Source of the DNA: Alphaproteobacteria bacterium
Lineage (GTDB): Bacteria > Pseudomonadota > Alphaproteobacteria > Micavibrionales > Micavibrionaceae
Assembly (NCBI GenBank): GCA_016125135.1
Contig: WGMJ01000016.1
Span: 1-64,000 of the forward strand
DNA length: 64,000 nt
Reading direction: 5' to 3'
Position 1 is the first letter of the stretch. Each line of letters starts with the position of its first letter. The notes under the pieces were generated by a model, which was given only the letters and a program-made list of their open reading frames with translations, did not search any database and was not told where the DNA came from. The position numbers and the translations under genes were made by a program. Positions 21,502-31,485 of this stretch are shown here, in pieces.

Positions 21502-24294
21502 CTAATGCGCGGCATTCCAGTTAGCGCCCCAACCGGCTTCGGCGGTGAGGGGCGTTTTCAATTTTGAAACTGATTCCATGATGGCTTTTAGCTTTGCCGC
21601 TGTTTCTTCTACTTCATTCTCGGGCACTTCAAACACGAGTTCGTCATGCACTTGCAGCAGCATTTTTGTTTTTGAATTTGTATCGCGCAGATAATGATGT
21701 ATATCGATCATCGCGAGTTTCATCACATCAGCCGCTGTGCCCTGAATAGGCGCGTTAATGGCTTGACGCTCGGCAGCACCACGGCGTGGGCCCTTTTCCT
21801 CGATACCGAAAATCTTACACTTGCGGCCGTAGAGTGTTTTCACAGAACCGTATTTGCGTGCTTCAAGCTTGGCATTCTCCATATAAACGGCAAGCTCGGG
21901 GAATTTGGCGAAATATTGTTTGATATACTGGCTGGCGGTGCCCGCATCGATGCCTAGCTGGCGTGCAAGGCCAAAGCCGCTAATGCCGTAGACGATACCA
22001 AAGTTAATGGCTTTGGCTTGGCGGCGTAAATCGGTTGTCATCTCTTCTAAAGGCACGCCGAATACTTGTGAGGCGGTAATCGCATGAATATCCTGATTAT
22101 TGCGGAAGGCTTCTTGCAGGGCTGTAATGCCTGCCATTTCGGCAACAAGGCGTAATTCTACCTGTGAATAGTCAATTGAAACCAGCACATGGCCGGGTGC
22201 TGCAATAAACGCTTCACGGATGCGGCGGCCTTCCTCGGTTTTGATCGGGATGTTTTGCAAATTCGGGTCAGATGATGACAGACGCCCCGTATTAGTACCT
22301 ACCATATTATAAGAAGTGTGCACGCGGCCTGTAGCGGGCGCGATTTGTTCGAGTAATGTATCGGTATAGGTGGATTTTAATTTTGCAAGCTGGCGATATT
22401 CCAGCACTTTATTGACGATCTCGTGGCCTTGCTCGGCAAGATCTTCCAGCACTTCAGCGGCGGTTGACCATTCACCCGTTCTGGTTTTGACGCTACCTTC
22501 AATACCCATTTCTTCAAAAAGAACCGCGCCAAGCTGTTTGGGCGAGGCGACATTAAATTCATGCCCTGCAATGGTATGAATATCTTTTTCGAGCGAAACC
22601 AGCTTTGTGCCAAATTCCTGTGAGAGTTTTTTAAGGAGCGGCACATCCACACAAATGCCGTGCGCTTCCATTTGCGCAATCACAGGGATCAGCGGGCGTT
22701 CGATATCTTCATAAACGCTGACCATTTTCTCTTGCGCGAGGCGTGGCTTCAAAAGCTGGTGAATGCGCATTGTTGCATCTGTATCTTCCGCGGCGTAAGA
22801 AAGCGCGTTTTTAATATCGACTTCTGCAAATGAAATCTGTTTTTTACCTGTGCCGACAACATCCTTGAAGGCGATCATGTCGTGCCCGAGCAGATTTTTA
22901 GCGAGGTCATCAAGCCCGTTGCCCTGCCCCGTGCCTTCCAGCACGTAGGAGAGCAGCATTGTATCGTCAAAGCCTGTAATGGGCAGGCCTGCAAGTGCGA
23001 GCACCTGCATATCGAACTTCATATTATGCCCGATTTTTAAAATAGCAGGGTCAGTGAGTAGTGGCCCCAGAATTTCCTGTACTTTTTTCAAAGGCAGTTG
23101 TGGTGTGTCATCAGTACCGCCCAGCAGATCACCCTGCACATGGCCTAGCGGTATATAGCCTGCCGTGCCGTTCGGCAGCGCAAGGGCAATACCGACAAGC
23201 CTGGCTTTCGCGGGTGTGAGGTCTGTTGTTTCGGTATCAATCGCAAAAGTGCCCGCGGCGCGCGCTTGGGCTACAAAATCGCTTAAGGTTTTTTCGATAT
23301 TCAGCAGAATGTATGAATCGCGGTTTATTTTTACGATGTCATTCTCGCGCAAGCGAGAATCTTGTGCTTTGTTCCCTGAGATCCCCGCTTTTGCGGGGAT
23401 GACATCAGAAGCTGAAGAGGATTCATGCGGCACCGAGAGGCGCGTGAGGATTGATTTAAAACCCTGTGCTTTCAGGAAGGCAATAAGCTCGCCCGAGGGG
23501 AAAGTTGCAGGCACAAGGGAATCAAGTGGCACGGGGGTGGGGCTGTTATCATTCAGCGTTACCAGCTTCTTTGAAATAAGCGCGAGTTCTTTGTTCTCGA
23601 TCAATGTTTCACGGCGCTTTGTTTGTGGTATTTTATCGGCGTTTTCAAGCAGGTTCTCAAGCGTACCGTATTCGGTAATGAGTTGCGCGGCAGTTTTTAC
23701 GCCAATGCCCGGTACGCCTGGCACGTTATCAACCGCATCACCAATGAGGGATTGTACCTCAATGACTTTTTCAGGCGGTACGCCGAATTTTTCAACGACC
23801 TGCTCGGGGCCGATGAGTGTCTGTTTGATCGGATCCTGCATGCGGATACCGTCACCGATGAGTTGCATCAAATCTTTATCAGATGAAACGATGATAACAT
23901 TAAAGCCTTTTTGTACGGCTTGCTTTGCGTAGGTCGCGATAAGATCATCAGCTTCGTAACCGTCTTGCTCGATGGCGGGAATGCCAAAAGCGCGTGTTGC
24001 TTCACGCACGATGGGGAATTGCGGAATAAGATCTTCCGGTGCTGGCGGGCGGTTGGCTTTATATTCTTTATAAATTTCATCGCGGAATGTTTTACGGGCG
24101 GCATCGAAAATGACAGCGATATGGTCAGCGTGTTTATCCTGCACCAGCCGCAACATGATATTGCAAAAACCAAGGACGGCCCCCACAGGCGTGCCATCCG
24201 CGCGGGTGAGTGGCGGCAGGGCATGGTAGGCACGGAAAATAAAGCCGGAGCCATCGACCAGATAGAGCGTTTTAGAGGCGGTATTTGCGGACAT
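21502..24294 (-). CDS. polA: DNA polymerase I
   Basis: Repair and Okazaki-fragment polymerase, 930 residues, all three activities apparently intact. 5'-3' exonuclease, residues about 5-285 (LVDGSGFIFRAYHAL, DGYEADDLIATYA). 3'-5' proofreading domain from about 335: FAIDTETTDL (exo I), IGHNMKFDMQ (exo II) and YAAEDTDATMR (exo III). Polymerase domain: motif A VSIDYSQVELRLVAE, motif B RRQAKAINFGIVYG, motif C QVHDELVFEV. An oddity is residues 298-319, encoded by a palindromic DNA repeat inserted in frame in the linker between the first two domains (see the repeat entry). It is bounded by a convergent small gene and an AT-rich divergent promoter region. Confidence 0.97.
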   Translation of the reverse strand: MSANTASKTLYLVDGSGFIFRAYHALPPLTRADGTPVGAVLGFCNIMLRLVQDKHADHIAVIFDAARKTFRDEIYKEYKANRPPAPEDLIPQFPIVREATRAFGIPAIEQDGYEADDLIATYAKQAVQKGFNVIIVSSDKDLMQLIGDGIRMQDPIKQTLIGPEQVVEKFGVPPEKVIEVQSLIGDAVDNVPGVPGIGVKTAAQLITEYGTLENLLENADKIPQTKRRETLIENKELALISKKLVTLNDNSPTPVPLDSLVPATFPSGELIAFLKAQGFKSILTRLSVPHESSSASDVIPAKAGISGNKAQDSRLRENDIVKINRDSYILLNIEKTLSDFVAQARAAGTFAIDTETTDLTPAKARLVGIALALPNGTAGYIPLGHVQGDLLGGTDDTPQLPLKKVQEILGPLLTDPAILKIGHNMKFDMQVLALAGLPITGFDDTMLLSYVLEGTGQGNGLDDLAKNLLGHDMIAFKDVVGTGKKQISFAEVDIKNALSYAAEDTDATMRIHQLLKPRLAQEKMVSVYEDIERPLIPVIAQMEAHGICVDVPLLKKLSQEFGTKLVSLEKDIHTIAGHEFNVASPKQLGAVLFEEMGIEGSVKTRTGEWSTAAEVLEDLAEQGHEIVNKVLEYRQLAKLKSTYTDTLLEQIAPATGRVHTSYNMVGTNTGRLSSSDPNLQNIPIKTEEGRRIREAFIAAPGHVLVSIDYSQVELRLVAEMAGITALQEAFRNNQDIHAITASQVFGVPLEEMTTDLRRQAKAINFGIVYGISGFGLARQLGIDAGTASQYIKQYFAKFPELAVYMENAKLEARKYGSVKTLYGRKCKIFGIEEKGPRRGAAERQAINAPIQGTAADVMKLAMIDIHHYLRDTNSKTKMLLQVHDELVFEVPENEVEETAAKLKAIMESVSKLKTPLTAEAGWGANWNAAH
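23338..23403 (-). repeat. In-frame palindromic repeat inside polA
   Basis: A 66-bp element with GTCAT/ATGAC ends (23338-23342, 23399-23403) and two internal hairpins with 8-bp stems and 4-base loops: 23341-23360 (ATTCTCGC/GCGAGAAT) and 23381-23400 (ATCCCCGC/GCGGGGAT). Its translation, VIPAKAGIS...SRLREND, matches the widespread proteobacterial dispersed palindrome recognised by its VIPAKAGI...SRLRGND reading. It adds 22 codons with no frameshift, in the loop between the 5'-3' and 3'-5' exonuclease domains. Confidence 0.85.
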
Positions 24295-30459: not shown

Positions 30460-31485
30460 ATGAATTGGCTGACGAACTTTATCCGCCCGAAAATCCGCTC
30501 GATGGTCGCGGGCCAGAAGGAAGTACCGGATAATCTCTGGCAGAAATGCCCCTCATGCGATGGCATGCTGTTTCACCGCGAGCTGAAGGAAAACAGCAAT
30601 GTTTGCTACCATTGCGGTCATCACCTCAAGATCTATGTTACCGAGCGGCTCGATATCCTATTCGACGATGGTTATGACTTGCTGAAATCACCTGCCGTGA
30701 AGCAAGACCCGCTGAAATTTAAAGACCGCAAACGTTATGCAGACCGCCTGAAAGAAGCGAAAGCAAAAACAGAACGCGAGGATGCGATTGTTCTCGCGCA
30801 AGGTACTATTGGCGGCTTCCCTGTTATTGTTGCTGCATTTGATTTTGAATTTATGGGCGGCTCGATGGGGGCTGCTGTAGGAGAAGGGATTTTGCGTGCC
30901 GCGGAAGTTGCCGTTGAAGAACAGGCTGCATTGATTGTTGTGCCTGCCTCGGGTGGTGCGCGTATGCAAGAAGGCGCGATTTCGCTGATGCAAATGCCAC
31001 GCACCGTGATTGCACGCCAATTGATGAAAGAAGCGCGCCTGCCTTATTTTGTGCTGTTAACCGACCCTACAACGGGCGGTGTATCGGCGTCATTCGCGAT
31101 GCTGGGTGATGTGCATATTGCAGAGCCGGGCGCGATGATTGGCTTTGCCGGTAAGCGCGTGATTGAAGAAACAATTCGCCAGCAATTGCCTGACGGGTTC
31201 CAGACAGCGGAATATCTGGTTGAGCATGGTATGGTGGATATGGTTGTGGCGCGGAAAGACCAACGCGCAACTTTTGCCAAGCTTCTTGGCTTCCTGATGC
31301 CGCAAAGTGCTGCGCTTAGCGTTCAGCATGGCGGCAAATCAAAGCGTGTGAAAACAGGCGCCAGCGGTAAAGCGCTTGAAAGTGCGCATAAGGCTTCAGG
31401 TAATATCGCACGCTATGTGGCGGATATCCCTGCCGATCTGACAGCTGCGAATAGCGACAAAAAGCAGAAACGTGCAAAAAGATAG
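30460..31485 (+). CDS. accD: Acetyl-CoA carboxylase carboxyltransferase beta subunit
   Basis: Beta half of the carboxyltransferase that makes malonyl-CoA for fatty-acid synthesis; it pairs with AccA, which is not in this window. 341 residues. The N-terminal zinc ribbon uses Cys30, Cys33, Cys49 and Cys52 (CPSC ... CYHCGHH). The crotonase-fold body contains FMGGSMGAAVGEGILRA, VPASGGARMQEGAISLMQM and TTGGVSASFAMLGDV, the biotin and CoA sites. The basic Lys-rich tail after residue 300 is a lineage extension. It overlaps folC by 14 bases, and the accD-folC pair is conserved in proteobacteria. Confidence 0.97.
   Translation: MNWLTNFIRPKIRSMVAGQKEVPDNLWQKCPSCDGMLFHRELKENSNVCYHCGHHLKIYVTERLDILFDDGYDLLKSPAVKQDPLKFKDRKRYADRLKEAKAKTEREDAIVLAQGTIGGFPVIVAAFDFEFMGGSMGAAVGEGILRAAEVAVEEQAALIVVPASGGARMQEGAISLMQMPRTVIARQLMKEARLPYFVLLTDPTTGGVSASFAMLGDVHIAEPGAMIGFAGKRVIEETIRQQLPDGFQTAEYLVEHGMVDMVVARKDQRATFAKLLGFLMPQSAALSVQHGGKSKRVKTGASGKALESAHKASGNIARYVADIPADLTAANSDKKQKRAKR

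Follow-up and report, generated by a model that had tools for sequence, protein, structure and literature searches.

A head-to-head palindromic repeat inside DNA polymerase I of a Micavibrionaceae bacterium, with a small GIY-YIG nuclease as candidate mobiliser

CGTC repetitive extragenic palindromes (REPs) are hairpin-forming repeats hosted mainly by alphaproteobacteria, Micavibrio included. The account of them used here comes from excerpts of Di Nocera et al. 2013 (PMC3733652). Their stems of 8 or 9 bp nearly always start with an A-T pair, the loops measure 4 or 5 nt, the tag is CGTC or, in many, TGTC or CCTC, most but not all of the tails fit CCA, and the repeats occur mainly as head-to-head dimers. 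The superfamily takes in Neisseria dRS3 (CGTC-1) as well as the Rickettsia palindromic elements RPE-6 (equated with CGTC-1) and RPE-4 (equated with CGTC-4). According to the same excerpts, CGTC repeats show no association with transposase genes and apparently have no dedicated transposase, and their mover is left open. The subject of the present analysis is a 66-bp palindromic element in polA, the gene for DNA polymerase I, within a stretch of 64,000 nt (the window) from contig WGMJ01000016.1 of assembly GCA_016125135.1, an Alphaproteobacteria bacterium of the Micavibrionaceae. The insert is read as a non-autonomous element of two outward-facing CGTC-type REPs which, as we hold with modest confidence, was probably moved by a GIY-YIG nuclease of about 95 amino acids. 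This reading draws on the anatomy of the element, its copy number, its in-frame reading, its absence from relatives, the association of the nuclease gene with REPs, and presence and absence on plasmids, all of which are observed. As REPs inside DNA polymerase I are already published (PMC3733652, excerpts), the insertion into polA, taken alone, is a further case of a described phenomenon; the new part is the candidate mobiliser, which is specific and cheaply testable.

The element in polA compared with known repeats

The relevant features of the window are the following.

21502..24294, minus strand: polA, DNA polymerase I, open reading frame of 930 amino acids, matching Pfam PF02739, PF01367, PF01612 and PF00476 and NCBIfam TIGR00593 and NF004397 above cut-off
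PolA residues 9-261, 332-519 and 553-927: 5'-3' nuclease, 3'-5' exonuclease and polymerase domains, respectively (Pfam)
23338..23403, no strand assigned: 66-bp palindromic element, a head-to-head REP dimer, corresponding to PolA codons 298-319 in the minus-strand reading
23338..23360, plus strand: first REP, an inverted repeat with GTC tag (23338-23340), 8-bp stem (23341-23348 / 23353-23360) and 4-nt loop; 0-mismatch match
23361..23380, no strand assigned: 20-nt spacer between the two REPs, differing among the copies of this genome
23381..23403, minus strand: second REP in opposite orientation, an inverted repeat with 8-bp stem (23381-23388 / 23393-23400), 4-nt loop and GAC end (23401-23403); 2-mismatch match

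The original prediction had described a 66-bp element with two hairpins of perfect 8-bp stems, in frame at residues 298-319, and its sequence and coordinates are exact: both stems are perfect, and the element translates as VIPAKAGISGNKAQDSRLREND (VIPAKAGI from residue 298) over 22 codons with neither a stop nor a frameshift. Judged by the domain matches and by alignment with the E. coli Klenow fragment, which aligns over its whole length from PolA residue 323 onward, the insert lies in the linker between the 5' nuclease and the 3'-5' exonuclease, just ahead of the Klenow part. The nuclease, exonuclease and polymerase domains are matched over nearly their full length. The prediction of intact polymerase and proofreading motifs is borne out to this extent, with all DNA polymerase I domains found in Pfam and NCBIfam and the Klenow part aligned entire. 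The insertion would be tolerated because 66 bp equal 22 codons, the frame and orientation are free of stops, and the site is a linker of variable length.

The pattern of the element is no chance product. A half-element pattern allowing up to 3 mismatches has 2 matches in the window against 0.01 expected, and the element folds as single-stranded DNA at -17.9 kcal/mol (z = -5.8), with none of 200 shuffles as good. A scan of the window with Rfam gave no family at gathering score.

By its anatomy the element is assigned to the CGTC superfamily, with the features of CGTC-1 apart from the tail. Both outer ends carry the TGTC variant of the tag, the stems are of 8 bp with A-T and T-A as first pairs, the loops have 4 nt, and at least 11 head-to-head dimers occur among 25 sites in the genome. 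The tails read CTT and CTC instead of CCA, which does not disqualify the element because most, not all, CGTC tails fit CCA (PMC3733652, excerpts). The element thus shares with CGTC-1 dimers the stem, loop, first pairs, outer GTC tags and dispersal, and differs in its T tag base, in its tails, and in the GIY-YIG gene proposed here as partner. With RPE-6 and RPE-4 it shares in-frame insertion into protein genes, in another host lineage; their likeness to the CGTC repeats is known by way of PMC3733652 (excerpts). A parallel with Rickettsia elements had been drawn in the original prediction. The relation stands, and parallel is too weak a word for it, as the CGTC anatomy is that of the superfamily which holds RPE-6, RPE-4 and dRS3. 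The likeness to dRS3 rests on the same excerpts, and dRS3 differs by forming clustered arrays, in contrast to the single dimers seen here. Finally, the REPINs with their REP-associated tyrosine transposases (RAYTs), together termed REPtrons, share the layout of hairpin dimers as non-autonomous elements beside a related nuclease-bearing unit. They differ in having a GTAG tag and an HUH tyrosine transposase, compared with a GTCA tag and a GIY-YIG nuclease here; the polA element has no GTAG tag and its genome no RAYT (Y1_Tnp) gene.

Dispersed copies and the PolA linker of relatives

The genome comprises 2.23 Mb in 23 contigs at a completeness of 99.8%. A search of it with the half-element, again allowing 3 mismatches at most, yields 45 rows, 35 of which carry the tag, compared with 0 for the reversed pattern used as control. 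These 35 and one untagged copy at C23:11659 (contigs are given here as C with a number) make up 25 sites; the remaining 9 rows show hairpins from this count once more, read from the opposite strand. The sites include at least 11 full pairs, one of 64 bp, two of 65 bp, seven of 66 bp and one of 79 bp. Eleven is a lower bound, as the partners at L007 and L019 miss the pattern according to their sequences. The search pattern leaves a single stem pair free, and in the 35 tagged copies this pair is C-G in 21 and T-A in 14, with no mixed case. Therefore, it is the pairing that is conserved rather than the letters. No clean target-site duplications were seen by eye in the flanks of the copies in this genome. 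Contig C17 (272,706 bases, about 12% of the genome) holds 12 of the 25 sites.

The earlier claim of a dispersed palindromic repeat is thereby confirmed, as other copies exist. The same result bears on the idea that residues 298-319 are an old part of the linker which only resembles a repeat. A long, variable linker in relatives agrees with such an origin; with 25 sites of one family and at least 11 full pairs of the same length with related stems, the idea has next to no probability, and the genome copies rule it out.

Four of the 11 full pairs lie inside open reading frames, all in frame and in one common reading frame that gives V-I-...-D. Apart from polA, the hosts are lpxK (C17:237958), recO (C19:135750) and a squalene/phytoene synthase-type gene (C17:243451). 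In recO, the Pfam and NCBIfam matches are split into two stretches that flank the insert. The integrity of the squalene/phytoene synthase-type gene is less sure because its Pfam match stops near the insert. The original prediction had singled out the repair enzyme as a special host. This does not hold: PMC3733652 (excerpts) already names DNA polymerase I among the repair genes with REPs inside, with flexible linkers as possible places of insertion, and three further genes of this genome have in-frame copies.

PolA was searched in 58 genomes and found in 55, including the present one. Three genomes with fragmentary matches were left out, and the linker was inspected in the other 52 (50, and 2 by eye). 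An apparent extra insert in one relative proved to be a run of undetermined bases; it was dropped and the linker kept in the count. Neither this set nor the set of 142 genomes used below includes a member of the same genus, and the closest PolA in the search has an identity of 62%. A comparison of presence and absence in relatives had been proposed, and it shows the segment 298-319 to be missing from all 51 other PolA proteins examined.

Three of these 51 carry different palindromic inserts at the same, length-variable linker. The insert of genome G011 has 75 bp, ends in GTCATCCCGA.../...TCGGGATGAC and reads VIPTEVEGS...DPSTNARDD; the repeat is dispersed in that genome, with 13 matches including the polA copy. 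In G014 the insert is one hairpin reading DARLRGHDD, the stem of which recurs elsewhere in the genome. The insert of G001 has the ends GTCATCCTGAG/CTCAGGATGAC, and one pattern search found no second copy of it in G001. The PolA of G001 (L249) also has a second palindromic insert of a non-GTC type in the 3'-5' exonuclease domain, reading SPSPRPSPREAR...GEGRGEG.

These recurrent inserts, together with the insert in recO, could suggest that the element is retained for changing PolA, and a mutator-type effect of REP-tagged repair enzymes is a speculation made in PMC3733652 (excerpts). Such an effect is very improbable here. All PolA domains match over nearly their full length, lpxK and the squalene/phytoene synthase-type gene were struck as well, and the recurrence at the linker is explained by tolerance because the length of the linker varies in relatives.

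Small GIY-YIG nuclease genes flanked by REPs

The first candidate for a mover is a RAYT or HUH (Y1) transposase that was lost or acts from elsewhere. The REP dimers are laid out like REPINs, and RAYTs as movers of GTAG REPs are a hypothesis cited in PMC3733652 (excerpts). For the repeats studied here this origin is improbable. The RAYT-type domain Y1_Tnp (PF01797) has no match in the genome, at the completeness given above, and 5 of 14 control genomes were matched by the same search. Moreover, in CGTC-positive species with tyrosine transposases, none of these genes is CGTC-flanked according to the excerpts of PMC3733652. A RAYT as mobiliser in this genome was thus searched for, and none was found.

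The preferred reading assigns the movement to a GIY-YIG nuclease. Five GIY-YIG matches are present in the genome, three of them small genes (on C21, C18 and C23) with a W-x-R-x-W-K tail. All three lie between outward-facing REPs, and the other two matches have none nearby. The unit on C21 measures 352 bp with identical hairpins at both ends, and the gene on C18 is flanked by two full head-to-head pairs.

The Pfam model PF01541 is matched by all 20 aligned members of this subfamily, which are about 95 amino acids long and share the tail W-x-R-x-W-K ... N-x-x-W-x-D-L. R29 and E66 of a subfamily alignment are invariant. In NCBIfam, the 20 members match other GIY-YIG-containing models weakly. For one member, taken from a Micavibrio record, the AlphaFold model reaches a mean pLDDT of 95; among PDB structures, only 1zg2, a UPF0213 protein, matches at E <= 0.001. 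Weak E-values, with TM-scores of about 0.4-0.6, were obtained for a second UPF0213 protein, for Slx1 and for the UvrC nuclease domain. Slx1 is a processor of branched DNA according to PDB record titles, and by this likeness an action of the nuclease on a hairpin or cruciform is plausible. UPF0213/YhbQ-type and UvrC GIY-YIG proteins share the Pfam domain and a related fold with the REP-linked subfamily, which differs from them in its conserved tail; UPF0213-like genes are, in addition, rarely flanked by REPs.

A protein-based scan of 84,980 species genomes gave at least 585 confirmed matches to the subfamily, of which the best 80 were kept, independently of REPs. By record title, these 80 come from Proteobacteria, Nitrospirae, Chloroflexi, Planctomycetes, Elusimicrobia, Patescibacteria and others. 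Full flanks were available for 74 loci. An outward GTC-tagged hairpin within 250 bp was found on at least one side in 61 of the 74 and on both sides in 38, compared with 22 and 1 of 521 equal-size windows shifted within the same loci. A first GIY-YIG family search over 95 relatives brought up, for the most part, UPF0213-type genes that had no REPs, and these served as a second control. In a pooled set of scan, relatives' and plasmid loci, leaving out duplicates, short-flank loci and loci with neither motif, 81 of 101 subfamily loci have an outward REP (54 on both sides), as opposed to 1 of 26 UPF0213-like genes (0 on both sides). A recount over 73 of the best 80 loci found a clean outward pair at 23, a clean inward pair at 1 and an outward pair with additional inward REPs at 15; an outward REP on one side was present at 23, an inward one on one side only at 2, and no REP at 9. 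The strict hairpin test misses repeat families with bulged stems.

The 23 clean units measure 354-610 bp; 11 of them fall at 354-360 bp, and six have exactly 355 bp. The records of these six are titled Nitrospirae, Nitrospira, Thermodesulfovibrionia, Desulfobacterales and, for two from one isolate, Proteobacteria. The hairpin is followed by CCAG at both ends in 22 of the 23 units and by CCAT in the remaining one. Left and right stem arms are equal in 26 of 40 pairs (6.5 expected; reached in none of 10,000 shuffles).

Protein identity and stem identity are correlated over 81 loci (Mantel r = 0.51, p = 0.0002). On the nuclease tree (81 rows), the stem class changes 20 times, compared with 35.8 when shuffled and a minimum of 30 in 300 shuffles. 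Among the 47 rows with a named phylum, 28 of them Pseudomonadota, there are 10 stem changes against 20.4, and 17 changes of host phylum against 18.7. For the 37 rows with a named class, the values are 8 against 13.6 for stems and 16 against 23.0 for host class. In these sequence comparisons, the stems track the nuclease more closely than the host, as a pair of nuclease and site predicts, with some host signal remaining.

A subfamily gene of N. gonorrhoeae (L207) sits within an array of hairpins of the GTCATTCCCGC type, equated with dRS3 in PMC3733652 (excerpts). A family missed by the strict hairpin test is seen in G001, where copies of the VIPTEVEGS-type repeat at 30525 (plus strand) and 30862 (minus strand) bracket a GIY-YIG gene (C47:30582-30851). 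This separate, dispersed repeat with a bulged stem (GTCATCCCGAGCGAAGTCGAGGGATC) has 13 matches in G011 and 17 in G001. A link of GIY-YIG proteins to REP, CGTC or Rickettsia repeats was absent from titles and abstracts among the matches listed in open-licence PubMed Central, and the term 'GIY' is absent from the main text of a review of miniature inverted-repeat transposable elements (PMC10969869).

Presence on plasmids and the proposed movement

The subfamily gene is present in 33 plasmid records, and six of the eight that were fetched have outward REPs beside the gene. In Azospirillum lipoferum 4B, sufB and sufC are separated by a nuclease unit that three sister plasmids lack, and the surroundings of the site are altered. 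Sphingobium plasmids carry a unit in seven records, and four further records keep both flanks without it (three and four aligned, respectively). Three additional records cover one side only and were not judged. The gene-free sites of TomTYG64 and TomTYG74 each have a lone REP, and TomTYG65 has a REP-like hairpin with another stem and without the GTC tag. At the gene-free site of TomTYG72 (L214, near 1020) a different inverted repeat is seen, CTCTCCTTCAGGGGAGAGG. In TomMM7A, a bare dimer and a nuclease unit have common extended ends, consisting of the hairpin and CCCGCT. A 50-kb Sphingobium plasmid stretch, scanned in three strains for clean gaps, yielded a single 83-bp dimer that two of the strains have and the third lacks; the flanks are altered. 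The divergence at the Azospirillum and Shinella sites is too great for exact element boundaries. A search for empty sites in S. meliloti over 134 records returned the locus itself and scattered partial matches among the 20 matches listed.

GIY-YIG domains are known from homing endonucleases. Accordingly, the gene might be a homing-like parasite or passenger that cuts REPs and is copied in by repair, the REPs themselves spreading otherwise. The orthologous sites of TomTYG64 and TomTYG74 are what such a parasite would target, a lone REP palindrome, and an inverted repeat stands at the other two gene-free plasmids. Weak matches to TIGR01453 in 10 of the 20 subfamily members and the existence of REP-rich genomes without a good nuclease gene agree with it as well. 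Homing is nevertheless rather unlikely. The gene lies inside outward pairs whose ends match and whose unit length recurs, which is the look of a mobile unit, and in one plasmid a bare dimer has the same extended ends as the nuclease unit. In addition, an alternative mobiliser was neither found in this genome by the Y1_Tnp search nor reported in the excerpts of PMC3733652.

Under the preferred reading, a head-to-head REP dimer was inserted into polA. The mover would be a small GIY-YIG nuclease encoded between REPs, its gene and the REPs often forming a compact unit of about 355 bp; three such genes are present in this genome. The nuclease may recognise the REP hairpin, either extruded as a cruciform or single-stranded during replication, and may cut at the boundary of tag and stem. 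Cutting would then release or copy DNA bounded by two outward REPs, be it the gene-bearing unit or a bare dimer. Both the binding or cutting of REPs by the nuclease and the step from cutting to insertion at new sites are thus putative.

Several results weigh against movement by this nuclease. No transposition event has been observed, and movement remains inferred. The four gene-free Sphingobium sites are not clean empty sites, and they fit a homing-like insertion into a REP, or a deletion down to a REP or between short repeats, as readily as movement. Two of the eight plasmid loci (L208 and L212) are without outward REPs beside the gene, as are, for any REP in the strict hairpin test, the 9 of 73 scan loci mentioned above. 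Host class retains signal on the nuclease tree (16 against 23.0 changes), and a shared ancestry of hosts and repeats is possible. Among 142 genomes, 5 of the 63 without a match at 1e-15 hold at least 10 REPs, namely G050 (28), G094 (27), G091 (15), G080 (13, with no match at all) and G141 (12), and 17 of the 79 with the gene show no REP of the searched pattern. The raw correlation of gene and REPs over these genomes is strong (62 of 79 against 21 of 63, Fisher 7e-8; Spearman 0.60), although partly trivial because the REPs flanking the gene itself are counted. After subtraction of two REPs per gene it drops to 34 of 60 against 12 of 43 (p = 0.005; Spearman 0.42), and the comparison inside genera falls short of significance (p = 0.09; 10 higher, 3 lower, 6 tied). 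The genome-wide correlation therefore carries little weight.

A broader proposition, for which the chances are about even, is that CGTC REPs, including RPE-6, RPE-4 and dRS3, form an unrecognised class of transposable elements, the autonomous form being a unit of about 355 bp with two REPs and a gene for a GIY-YIG protein of about 95 amino acids. If true, the system would resemble REPtrons but rest on a nuclease that has no relation to HUH transposases, with a remarkably small autonomous element. The class would span many phyla and write 22-residue inserts into essential proteins, providing a mechanism by which ready-made peptides of this length enter enzymes such as PolA and LpxK. Genes that the present records annotate as 'GIY-YIG nuclease family protein', 'hypothetical protein' or 'excinuclease ABC subunit C' would then encode transposition enzymes.

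One such name is found at a REP-bracketed GIY-YIG gene of TomMM7A (AP027312.1, L210; TomMM7A_25950), which is called 'excinuclease ABC subunit C', likely a misannotation. On S. meliloti pSymB (L212, about 1992-2282), CTCATCCCTGTGCTCGTCACAGGGAT palindromes, not GTC-tagged REPs, stand on either side of the GIY-YIG gene, and they may be a further repeat partner of this nuclease family.

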